A stretch of 60,478 bases of DNA from the NCBI RefSeq assembly GCF_000379525.1, contig NZ_KB902430.1, positions 1 to 60,478 on the forward strand, read 5' to 3'. The notes below the pieces were generated by a model. That model saw only the letters and a program-made list of their open reading frames with translations, ran no database searches and was not told where the DNA came from. The position numbers and the translations under genes are program-made. Shown piece by piece: positions 46,690 to 60,478 of the stretch; the stretch's first letter is position 1; each line of letters begins with the position of its first letter. The DNA comes from Lamprocystis purpurea DSM 4197. Its GTDB lineage: Bacteria; Pseudomonadota; Gammaproteobacteria; Chromatiales; Chromatiaceae.

Positions 46690-46813
46690 CGGGATTGCCG
46701 TCATGCGTTTGCGTAACCCAGAGATGGGCGTTGCTGCCAAACTCAAGGGTGCTCCCAAGAGGTGATCGCGGACTCACGTGAGTTGCAACCCGCTTTACCC
46801 AGGCAAAGAAGGC

Positions 46814-48967
46814 ATGAAATCCGCTACCCCACTCACCGCCGCCGAACTTGAAGACCGCATGGACCGCTATCTGGACCCGGTGCTGTCCTCCCGGCGCACG
46901 GCCGCGCGCCCGGCGGCGGACCTGGCCGGCTTCGGCGCCGCCGAGCAGGGGTTCGTACTGCATTGGGGTGCGGTGATCGCCAAGGATAACGCCGAGCTGG
47001 CCTATCAGTTCACCGCCTTCGCCCCGCGGGCCATGGGGCTGATGAATCTGGAATCGGTGCAGTCCTGGCTGCTGTACGCCATGGATCTGTATGACAAGAA
47101 AGGCCAACTGCCGGCCATCCGCGCTTTCCAGGAGGTGGCCGCCTTTGCGGCCAACCAGCAGGAGAAGCTGGCCGGCCGGGCGCTGGAGGATTGCGCCGGG
47201 GTGCTGGAGCGCTTCGTCTGCGGTCTCAACGGCCGGCCGCTCAAGATCGCCGCCGGCGACCGGCATTTCACGGACACCGAGCAGTGCTTGCTGCCGCCGG
47301 TTATCGGCCGCTTTGCGGACCCGGCGGCCAACTTCCGGCTCTATAAGGCGATGGTCGTCCATCAATGGGCGCAGAACTGGTACGGCACCTGGCGCGGCGG
47401 CGTGCTGCTGGAAGCGGCGGCAACGCGCGGCCTGACCGGGGCCGGGCTTGAGCTGTTCCACGCGCTGGAGCAGGTGCGGCTGGACGCCTGCATCGCCCGC
47501 GATTTCCCTGGTCTACAGCGCGACATGGCGGCCCTGCGGCACGCGTTGGACCCCGGCGGGGAGGGCAGGGACCCGGACTGGGCTGCGGCCGTCGCGGGGC
47601 TGGCCGACCCGGCCGTCGGCGTGGCCGACAGCCTGAATCTCGCGGCGCGGCTCCACGGCCGCCGCCCCGACACCTGCTGCTACCGCGGCGCGCTGGACCC
47701 GGACGCGGTGCGCGCCTGTCTGGAGTCCCGTGCCGCCCTGGAACGGGATCTGTTCCGCATCGCTCTGGCCCGGCTGGTCGAGGATCAGGACGGCCGCCCA
47801 CCCGGCGCGGAGCAGCCCGAAGCCCTGACTTTGCCCGAGACCGCCGCGCGTCTGGAGGCGCAGCGCCACGCCGATCCGGACCGCCCCACCGGCGTGCGCT
47901 TCGAACTGTTGCTGGACGGCAAGCCGGTCGCCCCGCCGGACGATGTCCGCTCCGTGATGGAGAGCATTCTCCAGGACCATGGCGAGATTCCTCCCGAGTA
48001 CCTGGTGGCCGCCGGCCCCGGACTCTATCGGCGCGCCGCGGCGGACACGGGGCGCGATCCGGACGCGGTCTGGGCCGGCACCTATCATGAGGAGGGCGCC
48101 TTTCTCTATGACGAGTGGGATCACGAGCGCCGTCACCACCGCAAGGGCTGGTGCGTGTTGCGGGAGCACGCGGTGCCGCCCGCGTCCCTGGACTGTTATC
48201 ACCAGACCCTGGCCAAGTACCGCGGCCTGATCAAGTCCATCCGCCGCACCTTCGAGGTGCTGCGCGGCGAGGAACGCATCGCCCGACGTCAGCCGCACGG
48301 CGAGGACGTGGACATCGACGCCCTGGTCGATGCCTATGCCGACTGCCGCGCCGGCCTGGAGCAGACCGACCGGCTCTTCACCCGGCGCCACCGGGACGAG
48401 CGGAACATCGCCGTCCTGTTCATGGTGGACATGTCCGGCTCCACCAAGGGCTGGATCAACGACGCGGAACGCGAGTCGCTGATCCTGCTGGCCGAGGCCC
48501 TGCACACCCTGGGCGACCGCTTCGCCATCTACGGCTTCTCGGGCTGGACGCGCAAACGCTGCGAGTGCTACCCGGTCAAGCGCTTCGCCGAGCCCTACGA
48601 CGACAGCGCCAAGGCGCGCATCTGCGGCATCGCCCCGCGCGACTACACCCGCATGGGCGCCCCCATCCGACATTTGACCAAACTGCTGCGTGAGCAGGAC
48701 GCCCGCACCAGGCTCCTGATCACCCTGTCGGACGGCAAGCCCGACGATTATGATCACCAGTATCGCGGTGTCTACGGCATCGAGGACACCCGCGCCGCAC
48801 TCTTCGAGGCCCGCCGCGACGGCATCCACCCCTTCTGCATCACCATCGACGAGCAGGGCGCCGACTACCTGCCGCACATGTACGGTCCGGCCAACTATGC
48901 CGTCATCGCCGACGTGGGCAAACTGCCGCTGAAAGTGTCGGACATCTATCGCAAGTTGACCTCCTGA
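46814..48967 (+). CDS. cbbO: Rubisco activase vWA subunit CbbO
   Basis: 717 residues from the ATG at 46814; an upstream GTG at 46778 is possible. The C-terminal vWA domain has an intact MIDAS: LFMVDMSGSTKGWINDAERE, the later threonine and aspartate in RDYTRMGAP and LITLSDGKPDDYD. The N-terminal half is helical and follows the CbbO/NorD layout. With CbbQ it forms the Q2O2 motor complex in which CbbO recognises Rubisco. NorD is the alternative reading, but no nitric-oxide reductase genes are seen. Separated from cbbQ by 1.7 kb containing an inserted module, so it probably now depends on another promoter or on read-through. Confidence 0.85.
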   Translation: MKSATPLTAAELEDRMDRYLDPVLSSRRTAARPAADLAGFGAAEQGFVLHWGAVIAKDNAELAYQFTAFAPRAMGLMNLESVQSWLLYAMDLYDKKGQLPAIRAFQEVAAFAANQQEKLAGRALEDCAGVLERFVCGLNGRPLKIAAGDRHFTDTEQCLLPPVIGRFADPAANFRLYKAMVVHQWAQNWYGTWRGGVLLEAAATRGLTGAGLELFHALEQVRLDACIARDFPGLQRDMAALRHALDPGGEGRDPDWAAAVAGLADPAVGVADSLNLAARLHGRRPDTCCYRGALDPDAVRACLESRAALERDLFRIALARLVEDQDGRPPGAEQPEALTLPETAARLEAQRHADPDRPTGVRFELLLDGKPVAPPDDVRSVMESILQDHGEIPPEYLVAAGPGLYRRAAADTGRDPDAVWAGTYHEEGAFLYDEWDHERRHHRKGWCVLREHAVPPASLDCYHQTLAKYRGLIKSIRRTFEVLRGEERIARRQPHGEDVDIDALVDAYADCRAGLEQTDRLFTRRHRDERNIAVLFMVDMSGSTKGWINDAERESLILLAEALHTLGDRFAIYGFSGWTRKRCECYPVKRFAEPYDDSAKARICGIAPRDYTRMGAPIRHLTKLLREQDARTRLLITLSDGKPDDYDHQYRGVYGIEDTRAALFEARRDGIHPFCITIDEQGADYLPHMYGPANYAVIADVGKLPLKVSDIYRKLTS

Positions 48968-52350: not shown

Positions 52351-55266
52351 ATGGAGCGCGCTCCGGTGACCACGACCCCCGCCGATTCTCCGATCCGGAT
52401 CCTGCACCTGTCGGATTTCCACTTCAGCACCCGCTCACAGTGGGACGCCGACCCGATCCTGCGCGCGCTGGCCGGCTTCATCGCCGACGATGCCGCCGAG
52501 AACGACCTGTACCCGGACCTGGTGATCATCACCGGCGACCTCGCCCAATCCGGCAAGCGAACCGAGTACGACTTCGCCCGCCGTTGGCTGAAGGACCTCT
52601 GGCCGCGTCTAACCCGCGACCCGGCGACGCCCTTGCCGCTGGACCGTCTACTGCTGGTGCCGGGGAATCACGACGTCGACTGGAACCTGATCGAGCCGGG
52701 TGCCCGCGATGCCCACCAGGCACTGCTTGCCGCCAAGACCCAGGCGGCGGTGACCGAGCGACTCAAGTCCAAAGCGACGCGGGAGCTGCTCTTCAAGCGA
52801 CACGCCGCCTACCTCAAGTGCTACGGCGACTGGCTCGGCCAGCGCCAAAGCCTCCCTTGGTGGCAGCGCCGGATCGTCATCCGCGATCAGCGCCTGCATG
52901 TTGCCGGACTCGACTCCGCCTGGCTGGCCGGCGGTGACGACGACAGCCGGCTGCTGCTCGGCACCTATCAGATCAACCAGACCGTCCTGCACCGGGACGG
53001 CGAGGGCGACTGCGACTGGCGCATCGCCCTGCTGCACCACCCCTGGGCGTCGCTGGCCGAATTCGACCGCAACGACGCCCAACGCACACTGCACCGCCAT
53101 CGCGATCTCATCTTGCGGGGCCATCTCCATCAGCCCGACCTTTTCCGTATCGTCCCCGCGGATCCGCGGCGCTCCTGCATCGAGGCCGCCGCCGGGTGCT
53201 GCTACTCCGGCAAGCCTTATCCGAATGCCTTCCAGTGGATCGAACTCTTTCCCGATCCACGCCGGGTGCGGTTCCATTTCCGCTGTTGGCATCAGGATGA
53301 TTGGCAGGTGGATCGGAATCAGCCGGAGTGTCGGGAGGGGATGCACAGCATCGACTTGCCAGCTGGCGACCATGCACCCGCGGTGAAGCCGCAAAGCCAA
53401 AAAAAATCCAAGACAACGGGTTCCGACCGCGATGACCCCGGACAAGTGACGGGTGTCCCTCAACCACCAGCCCGCCAAGTTGCTGCCTCGGTCGCTGCGG
53501 GCCCTGCCGTGCGCCGCGCTAGTAGCCGCTGCGACGTGCTCTTGCTGTACGTGAACGACAAGGAGAAGCAGGCCATTATCGAGACCTTCAGGGGGCCCCG
53601 CGGCGGTCTCCCGAAGCCGATGTCCGTCCAGGGGCTTGCATGCCTGGACCTGCGAACCATCGGCGGCCGGCGAATCCTGGCAATGGCCACCAACATGGGT
53701 AGCGCAACACCTGGCGGGACGGCGACCCTGACCCTTGATGCCATCACCGGGCTCGACCCGGAATGGATCATCGCCGTAGGGATCGCCTTCGGCATGGACC
53801 CTGACAAGACCCCGATCGGCACCATTCTGGTCTCCGACCGGGTGTCATGTTATGAGCCCCAGCGCATGGGCAGGACCAAGACCATTTCCCGCGGCGATAC
53901 GGTGTCGGTCCATCCGCATCTCAAGCAGCATCTTCAAACCGTGTCGGCGGCGCCTTACTGGAGCGGTGCCGAGGTGCGTTTCGGCGAACTCCTCTCCGGT
54001 GAGAAACTGATCGACGAGCCGGCATTCAAGGGCAAATTGCGCAAGCACTACCCCGAGGCCATCGGCGGCGAGATGGAGGCTGCCGGGATCTACAGCGCCG
54101 CCATGCTCAAACAACGCGCCTGGATCGTCGTCAAGGCGGTGTGCGATTTCGCCGATGGGAACAAGGGCGATGATAAGGACGCCCGCCAGACCCTGGCCGC
54201 GCTCAATGCGGCGACCTTTGTTCGTCATTGTCTGACCGCTTACGGTGGCGAACGCGGCGAGCGGCACTCGAAGTCTCGCCCCATCCCCGGGTCGGGTTCT
54301 GTACCAGCCCCAGACGCGCCGGCTGACTTGCGGAGTGGCGGCTCCGCGCTGTCTGCCAAGGAGCCGCCGGCAACCTCGATTCGCGCCGATGCCGTGGCCG
54401 GCATTGCTGAAGCGCTGGACCTTGTTGTACCGCTTCGCGACGCGTTGTCGCGGCCCGTGGCCGGTGTTCCGGCGGCGTCGGCCGCGGTGATCGCCGAGCG
54501 GCTCTGTGCGTCTGAGCCAGTGGCGTTCGGGCGGGCATTGAGCCATTTCCGACTGGCGCTGGGTGACGCCAGACGTGCGATCCGACAACGGCAGGGCGAC
54601 CTCCGGGATCTGCGCAACCGCGCCCACGACATCCTGGGCTGGATGGTCGTCACCACGGTTGTGGATGGTTACGACGAGAAAGAGGCCCCGGCGGTCCGGG
54701 CCTGGTTTGATGGTGCAGCCTTTTATGTCCCCATTGGCAGTAGCCTCTGTTTGGAAGTGCTGTCGGCACGGTGGTTGAAGCGCGAGGCCAGATTCGGGGT
54801 CGAGCGCACGCGCCGCCAAACTGGAGAGGACGACATCACGCCGGTCCGGCTCGGCGAGACCGGTTTCGACGACCCCTTCAAGATCACGCAGGGGCATGTC
54901 GTCAACGAGGTTTGGCGTCTGATCTTTCAGCAGTTGTATAAGGAAACCGCGCCGGCGACGGTCGATAGCGAGTTGCGGGATCGACTGCGCAAACGACTCG
55001 ACATCCAGTTGAATGAGCGCAAGCGCTGGCTCCGGCTGGTGATCGATCGAGCGGATCTACACAACCCGCTGAACCTCCCGGCGGCCTTGCAGGCGGTCAG
55101 CCAGGCCATTCCCTGGCTGCACCTGATCGTGATCGATGCGGCCGACCGGGCCGCGGCCGGTGTCTTCCTCCTGCCGGCGGGTGAGTTGGCGGGCGACATC
55201 GAGGAATGTCTGCAGACGATCGATGCTATTCAATTGCCGGAACTGACGCACGGAACAACCAGATGA
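52351..55266 (+). CDS. Metallophosphoesterase-nucleoside phosphorylase fusion, conflict-system protein
   Basis: A 971-residue, three-part protein. Residues 15-345: calcineurin-like phosphoesterase with all motifs present (LHLSDFHF, ITGDLAQSG, VPGNHDVDW, LLHHPW, LRGHLHQPD). Residues about 388-635: nucleoside phosphorylase/MTAN-like domain, with GGEMEAAGIYSAA (near 570) and AVCDFADGN holding the likely catalytic Asp. Residues about 680-971: unidentified helical-then-alpha/beta domain (HDILGWMVVTTVVDGYDEKE, WLRLVIDRADLHNPLNL). Phosphorylase domains are known in NTP-dependent conflict systems as sensors or effectors that cleave nucleosides. The stop overlaps the MoxR gene start (ATGA at 55263-55266). 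Effector or signal-processing role inferred. Confidence 0.8.
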   Translation: MERAPVTTTPADSPIRILHLSDFHFSTRSQWDADPILRALAGFIADDAAENDLYPDLVIITGDLAQSGKRTEYDFARRWLKDLWPRLTRDPATPLPLDRLLLVPGNHDVDWNLIEPGARDAHQALLAAKTQAAVTERLKSKATRELLFKRHAAYLKCYGDWLGQRQSLPWWQRRIVIRDQRLHVAGLDSAWLAGGDDDSRLLLGTYQINQTVLHRDGEGDCDWRIALLHHPWASLAEFDRNDAQRTLHRHRDLILRGHLHQPDLFRIVPADPRRSCIEAAAGCCYSGKPYPNAFQWIELFPDPRRVRFHFRCWHQDDWQVDRNQPECREGMHSIDLPAGDHAPAVKPQSQKKSKTTGSDRDDPGQVTGVPQPPARQVAASVAAGPAVRRASSRCDVLLLYVNDKEKQAIIETFRGPRGGLPKPMSVQGLACLDLRTIGGRRILAMATNMGSATPGGTATLTLDAITGLDPEWIIAVGIAFGMDPDKTPIGTILVSDRVSCYEPQRMGRTKTISRGDTVSVHPHLKQHLQTVSAAPYWSGAEVRFGELLSGEKLIDEPAFKGKLRKHYPEAIGGEMEAAGIYSAAMLKQRAWIVVKAVCDFADGNKGDDKDARQTLAALNAATFVRHCLTAYGGERGERHSKSRPIPGSGSVPAPDAPADLRSGGSALSAKEPPATSIRADAVAGIAEALDLVVPLRDALSRPVAGVPAASAAVIAERLCASEPVAFGRALSHFRLALGDARRAIRQRQGDLRDLRNRAHDILGWMVVTTVVDGYDEKEAPAVRAWFDGAAFYVPIGSSLCLEVLSARWLKREARFGVERTRRQTGEDDITPVRLGETGFDDPFKITQGHVVNEVWRLIFQQLYKETAPATVDSELRDRLRKRLDIQLNERKRWLRLVIDRADLHNPLNLPAALQAVSQAIPWLHLIVIDAADRAAAGVFLLPAGELAGDIEECLQTIDAIQLPELTHGTTR

Positions 55267-56237
55267 TTGCCGACATCCCCATCGACACCCGTGTCGAGCT
55301 TCCCCGCTGCGGCACCTGGCCCGCGTCGGTGCACCTGTTCGACCAGGACAGCGCCGATGCGGTGCTCGCCGCCCTGGCCGCCGAACGGCCGCTGCTGGTG
55401 CGCGGTGAGCCGGGTTCGGGCAAGAGCCAACTCGCCCGCGCCGCCGCCCAGGTACTGGGTCGACTCTTTGTCTCCACCGTGGTCCATTGCCGCAGCGAGG
55501 CTCAAGACCTTCAGTGGGAATACGACGCGGTTGCCCGCCTGGGCGAGGCCCAGGTCCTGGCTGCGGTGCGCTCGGACCTGGATCATCGCGAGCGGCTCGA
55601 CCCCCGTCGCTTTCTGATTCCAGGCCCGCTCTGGTGGGTCTTCAACTGGGCCTCCGCCCAGGCCCAGATCGCCGACTTCAGCCTGTGCAAGGTCAAATCC
55701 CCCGCCACGCCGGCCGGCTGGACACCCGACCAGGGCGCCGTGCTCCTGATCGACGAGATCGACAAGGCCGAGGCGGACCTGCCCAACAGCCTGCTCGAGA
55801 CCCTGGGCAACGGCGCCTTCCCCGTGCCCTGGCTCGATGAACCGGTGGGGCTGTGTCCCGAAGTACCGACGCCCCTGGTGGTCATCACCACCAACGAGGA
55901 GCGCGAACTCCCGGCGGCCTTCCTGCGCCGCTGCATGGTGCTGAAGCTTGAACTGCCCACCACCACGGACGCGCTGATCGCCTGTCTCGTCAAGCGTGGC
56001 GGGGAGCATTACGGCACGCACTGTACCGAAGCCGTCCGCACCCTGGTGGCCCGGCAGCTCGCCGAGGACCGCGCCCGCGCCCGTGACCTGGGCCGCCCGG
56101 CGCCGGGTCAGGCCGAGTACCTGGACCTCCTGCGCGCCTTGGTGAACGCGCGCGGGGCGAGCGAGGCCAAGCAGAAGGCGCTGTTCCAGCGCATTGCCCA
56201 CTTCGCCTTGGACAAGACCGGAGCCCGTGGTTCGTGA
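55263..56237 (+). CDS. MoxR-type AAA ATPase of the conflict operon
   Basis: 324 residues from the ATG at 55263, which overlaps the previous stop. Walker A is VRGEPGSGKSQLARAAAQVL; Walker B is GAVLLIDEIDKAEADLPNSL; sensor 1 is PLVVITTNEERELPAAFLRR with the arginine finger. MoxR ATPases act as chaperone-like motors together with vWA proteins. Here the next gene has a probable vWA-like region, so the pair resembles the MoxR-vWA core of ternary conflict systems. It is different from cbbQ (low similarity outside the motifs). C-terminal 40 residues are Lys/Ala-rich helices. Confidence 0.88.
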   Translation: MIADIPIDTRVELPRCGTWPASVHLFDQDSADAVLAALAAERPLLVRGEPGSGKSQLARAAAQVLGRLFVSTVVHCRSEAQDLQWEYDAVARLGEAQVLAAVRSDLDHRERLDPRRFLIPGPLWWVFNWASAQAQIADFSLCKVKSPATPAGWTPDQGAVLLIDEIDKAEADLPNSLLETLGNGAFPVPWLDEPVGLCPEVPTPLVVITTNEERELPAAFLRRCMVLKLELPTTTDALIACLVKRGGEHYGTHCTEAVRTLVARQLAEDRARARDLGRPAPGQAEYLDLLRALVNARGASEAKQKALFQRIAHFALDKTGARGS

Positions 56238-56325
56238 CCGGACGGTCGCTTCCGTACCCTCCCGGCGCTGTGCGAGCCCCGCCGTGCCCTTCGGTCGCAA
56301 GCCGACCGACACGTCCGCCGGCGCC

Positions 56326-59241
56326 ATGAACCGCGCCGCGCTGGGTCGCGCCGATTTCATCCGCTGGGCTGTTAGTCTGGACGATGCCCGTCTCGGTCGG
56401 CTCGCGCAGGTTCTTGGCTACGCGGACCTGCCGGAGCACGCGGCCGAAGACGCGGCTGACAGCGCCGGGCAGTCCAGCCTTCCGCTCTCCGCCCCCGCCG
56501 GCGAGCAGCCCGTGACGACCAGGGTTCGACACCGCCAGTACCGCGTCATCGCGCGCCGCGTGCTCGCCCCGCCGCCCGCGATCACCGAGCCCCAGCCGCC
56601 GCCCGAGCCCGCGTCGCCGGTCGCGCCCCTGGGTCCGGCGCCGCCCCTGATTCCCTGGCCGCGGCTCTGGCCCTTCCTGCGCGCGGCCCTGGGTGAGCTG
56701 GCCGAGCGTCACCGCATCGACCTCCGGCAGGTGGCGGCGGCCTGTGCGCGCATCCAACCCCTGCGCCGACTGCCGCGACTCAAGGGCGAACGCTGGGCCG
56801 TCGCGGGTGAGCTCATTCTCGATCTGCACCCGCGGCTCTACCCCTTCTGGGATGACTTCAATGCCCTCAAGGCAGCTTTGCCGCGCCTGCGCGGCGGCAC
56901 CGGGTTGCGTATTCTGCGCATGGATCAGGGGCCGGATGGCCTGGTACACGTCTGGGAGGCCGGGACCTGGGGTCCGCCGCGTCCCTATACCCCGCCCGCG
57001 GCAGGCCAGCCCGTACTGATTGCCGGTGACCTGGGTTGTCTGGGTACGCCGGCGCAGCGTCAGGCCTGGGTTCGGCTCGGCCGGCGACTCGCGGGCAGCG
57101 GTCGGCCGCCGGTTGTCCTCACCCCCTGTCCGCCCCGCTGGTGGGACCCGACACTGGCCGGTCTTTACTTTCCGGTTTTTCTCGACCGCGGCGCACAAAT
57201 CCCGCCCCGGCCGGCCGGTCCCCGCCCCTGGCCGGCCTGGGCGGTCGATTTCGAACAGGCGATCCGGGACGATCAGGGGGCGCATCGCCTCCTCGCGTTG
57301 CTCAGCGCCTGTGTCGCTATTCGCCCGGTGTTGCTGCGTCAGTTGCGTCACCGGCTGCCCGTGGGTCTGGCGGATACCGGCAGCGAGGCGGCGGCCTGGC
57401 AGCATCCCGCATTCGTGGCCGGGGACTTCGCATTGCTCCCCGGTGCCCCGGAGGCGGTCGAGCAGTTGCGCCGTGCCTTCCCCGAGACTGGCGACGAGGC
57501 CCAGCGCCGCTTGGCCTGGGAACTCATCCGCGCCCAGCAGCAGGCGGGTGCCAGGCAGTCGGACTGCATGGAGGAGCGGATTCTCCATGCCGCCATGCTG
57601 GGGCTGACCGATCCCGCGGCCGAGATCTTTCTCGACCAAGTGGCGAAGGCACTGGACCATGCAGGCAGACCGGACGATGCCGAACGTGCCGGGTATCTTG
57701 CAGCCTGGGTCAACCGCCGTGCCGCTCGGATGCACCAGGATGCCTGGCGGTACAGCCCGCGTTCGGAGGCCCTGTGGCTCAAGGTCAATCCGCGGGCCTT
57801 GGAGGAGGGGGCAACGCTGCCGCTTGGTTTCGACATCCACCGAGCGCTCGCGGCTGCCGGAACATCGCGGAAGCGGCAAGACTGGCGCCTGATGCAGCGC
57901 GGTGACTGGCTGGAATGGGAACCGGCGGCGGCGCCCGCCGGGGCCATCGTCAGCGGCAGCCCGGTGATCGCGGAAATGCCCACCGGCCGCCCCGTGATTG
58001 CGGTGCAGGAGCAGCGGGCCGGTGCGCCATGGATGAGTCTGGGACTGGACCCGGCCGCCGGCGGCGCGGGTGCACTGCCGTTGGGCGAGCACGGCTGGCG
58101 GCTGCGCACCGATTTCGAGGAACTGCTCATCACCCTCATGGAGCGGCCCCCCTGGGCGCAGACCCTGGGGCGGGATCAGGACGGCCTGTTTGTCGGCGTC
58201 GCGGCGGGTCAGGGCGAGCGGCGCGCCTCCTGGTGCACCCCGCTGGAATGGCTGCGCTGGCCCGGCTTGCCCGTGGGTCCGGCGGTGGACTCGCCCTGGG
58301 ACGGTCACGGCGCCTTTGTCGATGCGGACCAATTCAAGGCGCTGCGGTCGTTTGGACTGGTCCCGGCGGGCGCCGGCTGGACCCTGAGCCGTGATCGGTA
58401 TGGGCTGCGTGCGGAGATCAGCATCAAAGGCGTCGCCATCGGGCTGCGCTGGATTTGGCCAGGCGTTTTTCAGATGGGTTCGCCGCCGACAGAGCAGGGT
58501 CGCGACAGTGACGAGACGCAACATGAGGTCATCCTCACCCGCGGTGTCTGGCTGGCGGAGACTGCCTGCACCCAGGCGTTGTGGGAGGCGGTGATGGATA
58601 AGAACCCCAGCTACACAAAGGGGCCACAGTTGCCGGTCGAGCAGGTCAGTTGGGAGGACATCCAGGTATTCATCGGGCGTTTGAATACCTGGCTGGGCGG
58701 GTCGGTCGAGCGGTCTGCGCGGCCGACCCAAGGGTTTCGCCTCCCGACCGAGGCGGAGTGGGAATATGTCTGTCGGGCCGGGACCACCACGGCGTATTCT
58801 TTCGGTGATGTGTTCGATTCCAAACTGGCGAATATCGGCAGCAAGACGGTTGCTGTCTGTTCATTGCCGCCTAACCCCTGGGGGCTCTACGAGATGCACG
58901 GCAATGTCGATGAATGGTGTCAGGACTGGTTCGGTGACTATTCCGCCGGGCCGGTGATCGACCCCGCGGGGGCTGATTCAGGCGATAGGCGTGTGCGGCG
59001 CGGCGGCGGTTGGGTCTACCGGGCGCACTCCCTGCGCTCCGCGTGCCGCTTCCACGGCGCTCCCGGCTTCCGCGGCCACTACTGCGGTTTCCGGCTTGCC
59101 CTAGGTCCCGAGCCCGGCCAGGCAGGAAATGGCCAGCCGGTAGGGAGCGGGGCCGGACTGCCCGCGCAGGGAGCGAGCGGGAGCGATCGGAAGGCGCGGG
59201 CGGTCCGGCCCCGCGGGGGCAAGGGGAGCACAAAAACATGA
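56326..59241 (+). CDS. vWA-like/FGE-fold sensor protein, probable DGR target
   Basis: About 971 residues; start uncertain (ATG 56326 used; GTG 56227, which would overlap the MoxR gene, and GTG 56284 are in frame). Residues 5-35 (RADFIRWAVSLDDARLGRLA) form a small helical domain, then a Pro-rich linker. Residues about 150-330 look like a vWA fold without a MIDAS (GELILDLHPRLYPFWDDFNA, VLIAGDLGCLG). Residues about 700-930 are a formylglycine-generating-enzyme/C-type-lectin domain (WIWPGVFQMGSPPTEQGRDS, FRLPTEAEWEYVCRAG, GNVDEWCQDW). Its end, residues 890-925, has the features of a DGR variable region (separate entry). Likely a ligand-binding sensor working with the MoxR ATPase and the phosphorylase protein. 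Confidence 0.8.
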   Translation: MNRAALGRADFIRWAVSLDDARLGRLAQVLGYADLPEHAAEDAADSAGQSSLPLSAPAGEQPVTTRVRHRQYRVIARRVLAPPPAITEPQPPPEPASPVAPLGPAPPLIPWPRLWPFLRAALGELAERHRIDLRQVAAACARIQPLRRLPRLKGERWAVAGELILDLHPRLYPFWDDFNALKAALPRLRGGTGLRILRMDQGPDGLVHVWEAGTWGPPRPYTPPAAGQPVLIAGDLGCLGTPAQRQAWVRLGRRLAGSGRPPVVLTPCPPRWWDPTLAGLYFPVFLDRGAQIPPRPAGPRPWPAWAVDFEQAIRDDQGAHRLLALLSACVAIRPVLLRQLRHRLPVGLADTGSEAAAWQHPAFVAGDFALLPGAPEAVEQLRRAFPETGDEAQRRLAWELIRAQQQAGARQSDCMEERILHAAMLGLTDPAAEIFLDQVAKALDHAGRPDDAERAGYLAAWVNRRAARMHQDAWRYSPRSEALWLKVNPRALEEGATLPLGFDIHRALAAAGTSRKRQDWRLMQRGDWLEWEPAAAPAGAIVSGSPVIAEMPTGRPVIAVQEQRAGAPWMSLGLDPAAGGAGALPLGEHGWRLRTDFEELLITLMERPPWAQTLGRDQDGLFVGVAAGQGERRASWCTPLEWLRWPGLPVGPAVDSPWDGHGAFVDADQFKALRSFGLVPAGAGWTLSRDRYGLRAEISIKGVAIGLRWIWPGVFQMGSPPTEQGRDSDETQHEVILTRGVWLAETACTQALWEAVMDKNPSYTKGPQLPVEQVSWEDIQVFIGRLNTWLGGSVERSARPTQGFRLPTEAEWEYVCRAGTTTAYSFGDVFDSKLANIGSKTVAVCSLPPNPWGLYEMHGNVDEWCQDWFGDYSAGPVIDPAGADSGDRRVRRGGGWVYRAHSLRSACRFHGAPGFRGHYCGFRLALGPEPGQAGNGQPVGSGAGLPAQGASGSDRKARAVRPRGGKGSTKT
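58993..59100 (+). other. Candidate DGR variable region (VR)
   Basis: It encodes VRRGGGW..., RSA-R...P..R....GFRLA, the conserved frame of FGE/C-lectin DGR targets. The positions that vary in this family are here encoded at 59014, 59017, 59026, 59029, 59044, 59050, 59053, 59056, 59065, 59068, 59074, 59077, 59080 and 59083 by GTC, TAC, CAC, TCC, TGC, TTC, CAC, GGC, GGC, TTC, GGC, CAC, TAC and TGC. All end in C, as expected if AAC, GAC or ATC template codons were mutated at adenine. The template repeat is not in the window. Confidence 0.75.
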
Positions 59242-59504
59242 AATACCATTTCTTCCACATTCCGGCCCTGGAGCCGGAGGCCGCGACCGAGGAGCTCAAT
59301 CGCCTGCTCGCTCAATACCGCATTCTGTCGGTCGACCGTCATCTGGTCGCCGACGGCTGGAGCAGCTTTTGGGCGCTGTCCGTCTGCTACGCCGACACCG
59401 AGACCGCCCCCGGCGCGCCGGGCGCAACCCGTAGGGTCCGCTGCGCGGACCACCCCGTCGCCTATCCAACGACCCGGACCGCGGCTCATCCCCCGGATGT
59501 ATAA
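59238..59504 (+). pseudogene. DGR accessory gene (HRDC type), truncated by a REP-like unit
   Basis: Starts at ATG 59238, overlapping the target gene's stop (ATGA). The first 60 residues, MKYHFFHIPALEPEAATEEL, NRLLAQYRILSVDRHLVADG and WSSFWALSVCYAD, match the N-terminus of a protein encoded next to DGR reverse transcriptases in Chromatiaceae, which normally continues into an HRDC domain. Here, after ETAPGAPGAT, a family C palindrome (59431-59451) follows and the frame ends at 59504 in unrelated sequence. The HRDC part is lost. Identification is from memory of the family and should be confirmed. Confidence 0.6.
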
Positions 59505-59613: not shown

Positions 59614-59657
59614 GGTAGACTACGCAAACCGGCTCTCCCACTTAAATGGTTCAGCGG

Positions 59658-60227
59658 ATGTCCAATTGGCGGCGCGTCTTGGTGCCCGGCGGTACCTACG
59701 CCTTTACCCTGGTCACTGAAGGCCGGGCCCCGATTCTGACCTCGCCCGTGGGTCGGTCCATCCTGCGCCAAGTGCTGTGCGATTGTCGGCGGACCTGGCC
59801 TTTCGATATCGTCGCCGTGGTGCTGTTGCCCGACCATCTGCATACCTTATGGCGGCTGCCGACGGGCGATTGCGCCTACCCGCGGCGCATCGGTTGGATC
59901 AAGAAGGAGTTCACCAAGGCCTGGCTGGCGGGCGGTGGTGCGGAACAGCCGGTCTCGGCCTCGCGGCAGCGCCACCGCCGCCGCGGCGTGCTGCAACGCA
60001 AGTTCTGGGAGCACTGCATCCGGGGGGAGGCGGACCTGTGCAGCCATTTGGATTACATCCATTACAATCCGGTGAAACACGGCTATGCGACCTGCGCGCG
60101 GGATTGGCCCTGGTCGTCGTTCCACCGCTATCGGCAGGCCGGCGTTTACCCCGAGGATTGGGGGTGTATCGCCCTTGAATTCGGGGATTTGTCGGATGGT
60201 TGCGGAGAACCGGGAGGTTTTGGTTGA
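59658..60227 (+). CDS. REP-associated tyrosine transposase (RAYT, Y1_Tnp)
   Basis: 189 residues from the ATG at 59658 (MSNWRRVLVPGGTYAFTLVT), the standard RAYT opening; an ATG at 59646 is also possible. The HUH motif is VVLLPDHLHTLWRLP; the catalytic Tyr region follows in the helix YPRRIGWIKKEFTKAW, and the C-terminal signature is DYIHYNPVKHGYA. RAYTs cut and move short REP palindromes. Family C palindromes flank the gene on both sides (59431-59613 and 60232-60478), so they are the likely substrates. The protein looks complete. Confidence 0.9.
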   Translation: MSNWRRVLVPGGTYAFTLVTEGRAPILTSPVGRSILRQVLCDCRRTWPFDIVAVVLLPDHLHTLWRLPTGDCAYPRRIGWIKKEFTKAWLAGGGAEQPVSASRQRHRRRGVLQRKFWEHCIRGEADLCSHLDYIHYNPVKHGYATCARDWPWSSFHRYRQAGVYPEDWGCIALEFGDLSDGCGEPGGFG

Positions 60228-60231
60228 GCCC

Positions 60232-60478
60232 CGTCGGGTCCGCTGCGCGGACCGGCCGCGTACGGGAACCTGCGGCGTCGGGGTTGACTGCGAGGGGGGT
60301 GGTCCGCACAGCGGACCCTACGAGCCCGCGTGCTTGGGCAGGTCCCGTAGGGTCCGCTGCGCGGGCCAGGTACGTACGGGAACCTGCGGCGTCGGGGTTG
60401 ACTGCGAGGGGGTTGGTCCGCACAGCGGACCCTACGAGCCCGCGTGCTTGGGCAGGTCCCGTAGGGTCCGCTGCGCGG
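60232..60478. repeat. REP-like cluster with 114-bp tandem unit, cut by window end
   Basis: Family C palindromes at 60232-60253, 60301-60321, 60347-60366, 60415-60435 and 60461-60478 alternate in orientation. The block starting TACGGGAACCTGCGGCGTCG at 60261 repeats at 60375 (period 114 bp), so at least two tandem copies of a REP pair are present and a third begins at the window edge. Typical of BIME-like clusters next to a RAYT gene. Confidence 0.8.

Follow-up and report, generated by a model that had tools for sequence, protein, structure and literature searches.

Is the 3′ end of an FGE-type gene in Lamprocystis purpurea DSM 4197 the variable repeat of a diversity-generating retroelement (DGR), and if so, is that DGR still rewriting it? 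By the window we mean the whole stretch of 60,478 nucleotides analysed here, with which contig C69 (NZ_KB902430.1; 101,171 bp) begins; coordinates prefixed C69 continue past it. The draft genome spans 6.9 Mb over 211 contigs, with completeness rated 100%. The original prediction, made from the letters alone, had read a run of NNC codons as the footprint of adenine-directed hypermutation in an FGE/C-lectin sensor. We consider it very probable that the locus (Table 1) is a DGR with VR1 at 58980-59107 which has lost its reverse transcriptase (RT), leaving the template repeat (TR) and two variable repeats (VR1 and VR2) as a probably frozen relic. This explanation is supported by i) the asymmetry of the TR/VR differences; ii) intact orthologous loci; iii) truncation of the HRDC-type accessory gene; iv) a search of the genome that found no intact RT; v) a VR-linked hairpin; and vi) hypervariability among relatives.

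Table 1. Features of the L. purpurea locus, in the window and just beyond it
Feature	Position	Strand	Basis or remark
Phosphoesterase gene (calcineurin-like and nucleoside-phosphorylase-like domains)	52351..55266	+	Pfam PF00149, E 1.7e-14; PF01048, E 2.3e-8
MoxR-like AAA ATPase gene	55206..56237	+	Pfam AAA_5, E 2e-12
DGR target 1 (C-terminal FGE/C-lectin domain, long N-terminal extension)	56326..59241	+	ORF; G007 orthologue aligned
FGE-sulfatase (C-lectin fold) domain of target 1	58453..59100	+	PF03781, residues 754-969, E 2.5e-34
VR1	58980..59107	+	Homology to TR (C69:60597-60726), 81% identity
VR1 variable core	59014..59085	+	24 codons, 15 with a TR adenine (codon tables)
VR-linked hairpin	59145..59215	+	Stem 59147-59167 paired with 59194-59214; fold z -8.1
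Truncated HRDC-type accessory gene	59238..59435	+	First 66/167 codons; 79% identity over residues 1-66 of the accessory protein in G005
REP-associated tyrosine transposase, at the place of the missing RT	59646..60227	+	NCBIfam NF047646, E 5.8e-50
Period-114 tandem array, start	60230..60478	.	Extends to C69:60552
TR	C69:60597-60726		Outside the window, 119 bases beyond its end
Target 2, short FGE gene	C69:60879-61766		Outside the window; PF03781, E 1.7e-38
VR2, in target 2	C69:61614-61740		Outside the window

The reading frame, its C-terminal FGE domain, and the codon pattern sit where they were predicted to be. An alternative start for target 1 is a TTG at 56194, and Pfam finds no domain in the protein besides PF03781. 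That all variable positions are NNC codons is true of 13 of the 15 codons with a TR adenine but not of CGG (59020-59022) or GCT (59059-59061), and the list of residues held to be fixed fails at the same two places, since R at 59020 and A at 59059 both fall on TR-adenine codons. The binomial P for at least 13 NNC codons among 15 is 1.8e-4, for positions picked post hoc. Because 38.5% of target 1's codons end in C, and because some invariant VR1 codons are also NNC, we regard the NNC pattern alone as weak evidence for hypermutation of this gene; the decisive evidence, in our judgment, is the TR outside the window.

A search of the genome with VR1 returned two strong matches beyond VR1 itself, C69:60597-60724 and C69:61614-61753, the next best having an E of 0.24. 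The former is the predicted template repeat, a unit of ~130 bp found close by, rich in AAC codons and joined to no FGE gene, its homology confined to those ~130 bp; the latter covers VR2. Over 126 bp, VR1 differs from the TR at 17/26 adenines against 6/100 other bases (Fisher p = 4e-10), and VR2 at 17/26 adenines against 4/100 other bases (Fisher 3e-11); read in the opposite direction, from VR to TR, the adenine bias is absent (0/9 adenines for VR1 and 1/10 for VR2). Within the 72-base core, 16/21 TR adenines are changed in VR1 and 15/21 in VR2, as are 3/51 other bases in each. This asymmetry bears out the adenine-directed hypermutation claimed for the FGE/C-lectin domain, and on comparison of the sequences 58980-59107 is a genuine DGR variable repeat. 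The non-adenine core differences in each VR count against a perfect fit, and imply that the present TR is not an exact template. The TRs of L. purpurea and of an uncultured Thiodictyon MAG (G005; contig NZ_CAIKKU010000746.1) differ at four non-adenine core sites, where VRs match the TR of their own genome in 15/16 cases; counting against this, at a fifth difference just upstream of the core, both L. purpurea VRs have the GGC of the G005 TR while their own TR has GCC. An attempt to use TR-private bases to date VR rewriting after the split between L. purpurea and its congener G007 was dropped, since other congeners often have these bases (?TC, G?T) as well, which leaves their polarity unclear.

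Could the pattern have arisen with no DGR at all? The frequency of C-ending codons and the NNC codons at invariant VR positions would both be expected if the NNC pattern were merely the codon bias of a GC-rich gene, a reading to which we give almost no credence: the TR comparison is independent of codon use, and codon bias as the whole cause is ruled out by the TR/VR asymmetry together with a control in which 27 FGE 3′ ends from the L. purpurea genome were compared as 702 ordered pairs, TR to VR1 and TR to VR2 being the only pairs with p<1e-6. (The 27 ends were drawn from 32 places, of which two had no locus, one was a partial end and was omitted, and two lacked the motif; two of the 27, L191 and L192, were extracted out of frame.) Hardly more credible is the idea that FGE paralogues simply diverged by selection or swapped 3′ ends through gene conversion. 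The genome does contain 53 FGE matches, FGE 3′ ends are alike, and recombination between relatives seems to have affected both the N-terminal portion of target 1 and the block with the transposase; but exchange of 3′ ends yields no bias in one direction and at adenines alone, the only 2 of the 702 pairs to pass p<1e-6 both run from TR to VR, the TR is attached to no FGE gene and is homologous over just its own length, and intact orthologous loci have both an RT and a TR.

We also compared the repeats with those of congeners, whose genomes are labelled G004 to G007. In G004 ("Chromatiaceae bacterium isolate ppb02", a MAG), the copies compared were VR1 on G004:C224 (L157) and VR2 on G004:C297. 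Variation between relatives proved to be limited to the predicted codons: ppb02 has in common with L. purpurea 0/15 residues at the TR-adenine codons of VR1 and 1/15 at those of VR2, with 9/9 residues elsewhere in both, and the flanks are identical at 905/1000 and 352/384 positions (VR1) and at 647/700 and 172/200 (VR2). Base differences from ppb02 fall on 18/21 (VR1) and 17/21 (VR2) TR adenines, and on 3/51 other bases in each. With G005, 1/15 residues are in common at the TR-adenine codons of either VR, and with G007, 6/15 (VR1) and 4/15 (VR2); elsewhere the count is again 9/9 in both genomes.

The TR/VR unit was matched in 10 of the 55 genomes searched, including all 8 from the genus in that set (L. 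purpurea counted). In G005 the order is target 1, an HRDC-domain gene (HRDC domain at residues 83-149 of the protein), RT, TR, and target 2, with the TR no more than 20 bases from the end of the RT; the RT carries LPIGSLTSQ and YMDD, which we take to be the mark of DGR RTs. TR and VRs in G005 differ at 15/20 and 16/20 adenines, and each VR at 0/52 other bases. The genes of Ca. Contendobacter (L158) are arranged alike, with the TR again following the RT, and its proteins are 61% (HRDC) and 75.5% (RT) identical to those of G005; its VR departs from its TR at 13/23 adenines and 0/85 other bases, and upstream of its target 1 lie genes which by eye are phosphoesterase-like and AAA-ATPase-like. The operon in L. 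purpurea is likewise of the MoxR type, with the AAA ATPase gene upstream of target 1, the name MoxR-like being taken from a weak NCBIfam MadB-family match and from the published operon type. In comparison with MoxR-vWA-VMAP ternary conflict systems, the AAA ATPase is there, and Pfam shows neither vWA nor VMAP in target 1 or the phosphoesterase protein; a vWA-less variant has been described. The phosphoesterase gene is a possible candidate for the effector of the operon.

The L. purpurea locus departs from this order in that its accessory gene stops before the HRDC domain, and REP-like repeats, the REP-associated tyrosine transposase, and the period-114 array separate the gene from the TR. A DGR reverse transcriptase had also been expected in the genome, and here the expectation failed: one search with RVT_1 and three with DGR-RT proteins found no intact DGR RT, only i) an RVT_1 piece at C179; ii) an N-terminal fragment (C1:267786-268127) 87% identical to residues 1-114 of the G006:C480 RT; iii) a C-terminal DGR-RT fragment (C157:44944-45039; 97% identity, residues 261-292); and iv) two further weak matches (35-36%, E 0.006 and 0.02). 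The C1 and C157 fragments adjoin FGE genes whose 3′ ends are VR-like. In G003-G007, by contrast, several RTs come up when RVT_1 and the G005 RT are used in the same way. A tblastn search of the window and of C69:56000-101171 with the G005 RT and HRDC proteins found only the truncated HRDC start, and no intact accessory gene was found in the genome, where one other match (36%, C1:7592-7885, within a 770-residue frame) is probably a different HRDC protein. L. purpurea thus seems to have lost the RT. Decay at this locus extends to relatives: ppb02 has the same HRDC junction and transposase (568/582 identical, 97.6%), with the gene 16 bases longer, and in G007 the accessory gene stops after 37 codons and a related transposase is present. 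At the G007 locus and on G004:C297 the array continues into post-TR sequence, so no TR is seen at either place; in G004 a break in the assembly separates the two contigs.

We think it unlikely, though far less so than the readings that dispense with a DGR, that the system still works in this strain, with its RT hidden where the assembly has a gap, or with the TR and VRs served in trans by an RT encoded elsewhere. A single N at C69:60479, within the repeat array, makes misassembly possible; the TR has been kept, matching that of G005 at 122/130 positions, as compared with 124/145 for post-TR sequence and 572/700 and 770/994 for the target genes; trans diversification of RT-less loci has been reported from Thiohalocapsa (PMC10907252, excerpts); and ppb02, despite having the broken HRDC junction and transposase in common, has wholly different VRs, which counts against a simple freeze when the junction broke. 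Either an RT in trans would have kept rewriting the VRs, or recombination would have spread the transposase block, whose identity between ppb02 and L. purpurea (97.6%) exceeds that of its surroundings, after the VRs had diverged. On the other side, a genome rated 100% complete yielded no intact DGR RT where G003-G007 yielded RTs, it yielded no intact accessory gene, and the RT remnants on C1 and C157 point to real deletion. Further TRs that adjoin RTs in G004 and G007 may still act in trans, although those inspected are by eye of different sequence classes, in a set of RT loci that leaves aside, for example, G004:C311 and G005:C725. The predicted diversified receptor surface should accordingly be divided: the surface was diversified, but continuing diversification in this strain is doubtful.

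Downstream of VR1 is a hairpin of 71 bases with a stem of ~20 bp, whose GGACTG arm lies 41-55 bases past the VR. The fold has a z of -8.1 at VR1, -3.8 at VR2, and -1.6 for a longer G007 stretch, and is thus less exceptional in the last two, which counts against it. At E <= 0.001 the hairpin has two copies in its own genome, one after each VR (that of VR2 at C69:61768-61838), and none after the TR; copies follow an FGE-type 3′ end in 2/2 cases in L. purpurea, 2/2 in G005 (both VRs), and 5/5 in G007. The left arm is found in 17/28 TR/VR copies from the genus and G012, and is absent from 6 VR-like and from 5/5 template-like copies. Stem cells pair in 92.7% of cases, as against 31-45% when the arms are slid, among 16 aligned copies, of which 15 are distinct (the 17th left-arm copy lacks a right arm and was omitted); no stem covariation was seen in the aligned copies (0 pairs changed on both sides), so sequence conservation alone could explain the pairing. 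In the phage BPP-1 DGR a hairpin/cruciform downstream of the VR is required (PMC3240598, excerpts), and we propose that the hairpin described here may mark the recipient site, making it a concrete candidate recipient mark for this cellular DGR group.

VR1 and VR2 may not be the only such ends in this genome. When 23 of its FGE 3′ ends (TR omitted) were compared with 13 TRs, one from L. purpurea itself and 12 from relatives, and an end was called VR-like if it had at most 10% non-adenine mismatches to its best TR and a p below 1e-4, 13/23 qualified; they fall into six template classes and comprise VR1, VR2, and 11 further ends. The clearest of these 11, C157:45294-45404, differs from the G006:C480 TR at 19/26 adenines and 0/70 other bases. 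Three of the 10/23 ends that failed also have p below 1e-4 yet 23-26% non-adenine mismatches, so a low p is not by itself discriminating. As the best TR was picked among 13 for each end, and for the 11 comes from another species, these ends look like leads rather than proofs. The genome contains one recognisable TR, no intact DGR RT, and RT fragments beside some genes with VR-like ends. This lineage may have used DGRs to assemble its sensors, after which the machinery disappeared and the set became fixed, whereas sister species still have RT, TR, and VR together; we offer this tentatively, and would lean slightly against it.

The history that we favor for the locus is as follows. Behind genes for a phosphoesterase and a MoxR-like ATPase, the ancestral locus would have held target 1 with VR1, an HRDC gene, the RT, the TR, and an FGE-only target 2 with VR2; the RT would have reverse-transcribed the TR RNA, inserting random bases at its adenines, and the resulting cDNA would have taken the place of the VRs, presumably by retrohoming, the hairpin downstream of each VR probably marking the recipient; and the resulting protein, a putative sensor, would have displayed a C-lectin surface on which as many as 15 residues were randomised. 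In L. purpurea the accessory gene was then truncated and the RT would have been replaced by the transposase and repeat array, with the TR and both VRs retained and the VRs now presumably frozen. Intact in G005 and Ca. Contendobacter, without RT but with TR in L. purpurea, and without either in G007, the locus forms a graded series which lets one ask whether bacteria retain DGR-made receptors after losing the mutator.

Known systems, here compared through excerpts of the cited papers, resemble this one in several respects. Closest, by gene order rather than by an RT tree, is the Thiohalocapsa DGR 8 / clade 5A type (PMC10907252), which differs in that the HRDC gene is truncated here, the entire assembly lacks an intact RT, the TR is retained, and a phosphoesterase gene lies upstream where DGR 8 is given a helix-turn-helix gene; at some DGR loci of Thiohalocapsa PB-PSB1, repeat arrays have replaced the RT or TR (Dore et al. 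2024, PMC10907252). The closest solved structure to the FGE domain is the DGR variable protein TvpA (2y3c, E 3.1e-25), to whose C-terminus the VR aligns, and Treponema denticola likewise combines an FGE-type C-lectin variable protein with an HRDC accessory gene and has isolates in which target genes remain after loss of RT and TR (PMC4891356); unlike that DGR, ours belongs to relatives among the purple sulfur bacteria, lies in a MoxR operon, has two targets per locus, and has kept the TR without an RT. BPP-1 shares the adenine-directed transfer from TR to VR and a hairpin/cruciform downstream of the VR, but the hairpins of the phage DGRs compared in that paper have stems of 7-10 bp lying 4-34 bp from the VR, against a stem of ~20 bp here (PMC3240598), and its accessory protein, Avd, forms a helical bundle (cited in PMC7159879) instead of being of the HRDC type. 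Cyanobacterial DGRs too have CLec targets that retain remnant TR-VR homology without an RT close by, as well as transposases of the IS200/IS605 type in the vicinity of variable proteins (PMC7517822), in other hosts and with other target architectures, as set apart by descriptions rather than sequences. The conflict link of such systems is due to Kaur et al. 2020 (PMC7159879), also the one paper that a search of the DGR literature for Lamprocystis returned; the same search for Thiodictyon returned none, and this locus surfaced in neither. The kind of system is thus already known, and what is new is this member of it, its decay with the TR kept, and a likely RT-less repertoire: a hypermutated, antigen-sensor-like protein was recognised from raw sequence, and its template, orthologues, and relatives agree.

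Two loci on contigs C157 and C1 of the L. purpurea genome (see table) carry pieces of diversity-generating retroelements (DGRs) and, judged from their sequence, would be the second and third DGR relics in this genome, respectively. On C157, two FGE (C-lectin-type domain) genes have 3′ ends oriented toward one another; both ends are VR-like and resemble VRs of the class defined by the template repeat (TR) of G006 contig C480, with 0/70 and 5/70 non-adenine mismatches, and between them lies a reverse transcriptase (RT) C-terminus of 32 residues (97% identical). On C1, a DGR-RT N-terminal fragment, 87% identical to the G006:C480 RT over 114 residues, adjoins an FGE gene with a 3′ end that matches the same template class, differing at 3/70 non-adenine and 14/26 adenine positions. 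Additional FGE 3′ ends are VR-like, some of them belonging to large multi-FGE proteins.

Candidate DGR relics and other VR-like FGE 3′ ends in the L. purpurea genome (G000)
Feature	Position	Loci	Resemblance
DGR relic	G000:C157:44106-46097	L072, L079, L189, L194	G006:C480 template class
DGR relic	G000:C1:267786-269079	L139, L193	G006:C480 template class
VR-like FGE 3′ ends	G000:C69:93194-95140		VRs of G004 and G006 templates
VR-like FGE 3′ ends	G000:C183:2926-14844		VRs of G004 and G006 templates
VR-like FGE 3′ ends	G000:C111:130915-132547		VRs of G004 and G006 templates

Within the window, the VR1-bearing gene, target 1, is a mosaic between L. purpurea and the Chromatiaceae isolate ppb02 (56326-59013 compared with locus L157): identity is about 50-81% for windows in 56300-57899, and about 88-94% for those in 57900-58999. 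Pfam and NCBIfam searches with the 729-residue protein at 46778-48967 gave no match at E 0.01; by eye, its DMSGST stretch looks like a vWA metal site.

Turning to related genomes, a copy of the VR hairpin (L156:3074-3144, equivalent to G007:C1:4019073-4019143) lies 3′ of an FGE 3′ end with weak TR similarity (70.7% over 75 bases), which is perhaps an old VR. At ten RT loci from congeners and G012 (L135, L142, L147, L118, L148, L131, L137, L138, L144, and L112), an AAY-rich template-like repeat and at least one VR-like copy are found near the DGR-type RT.
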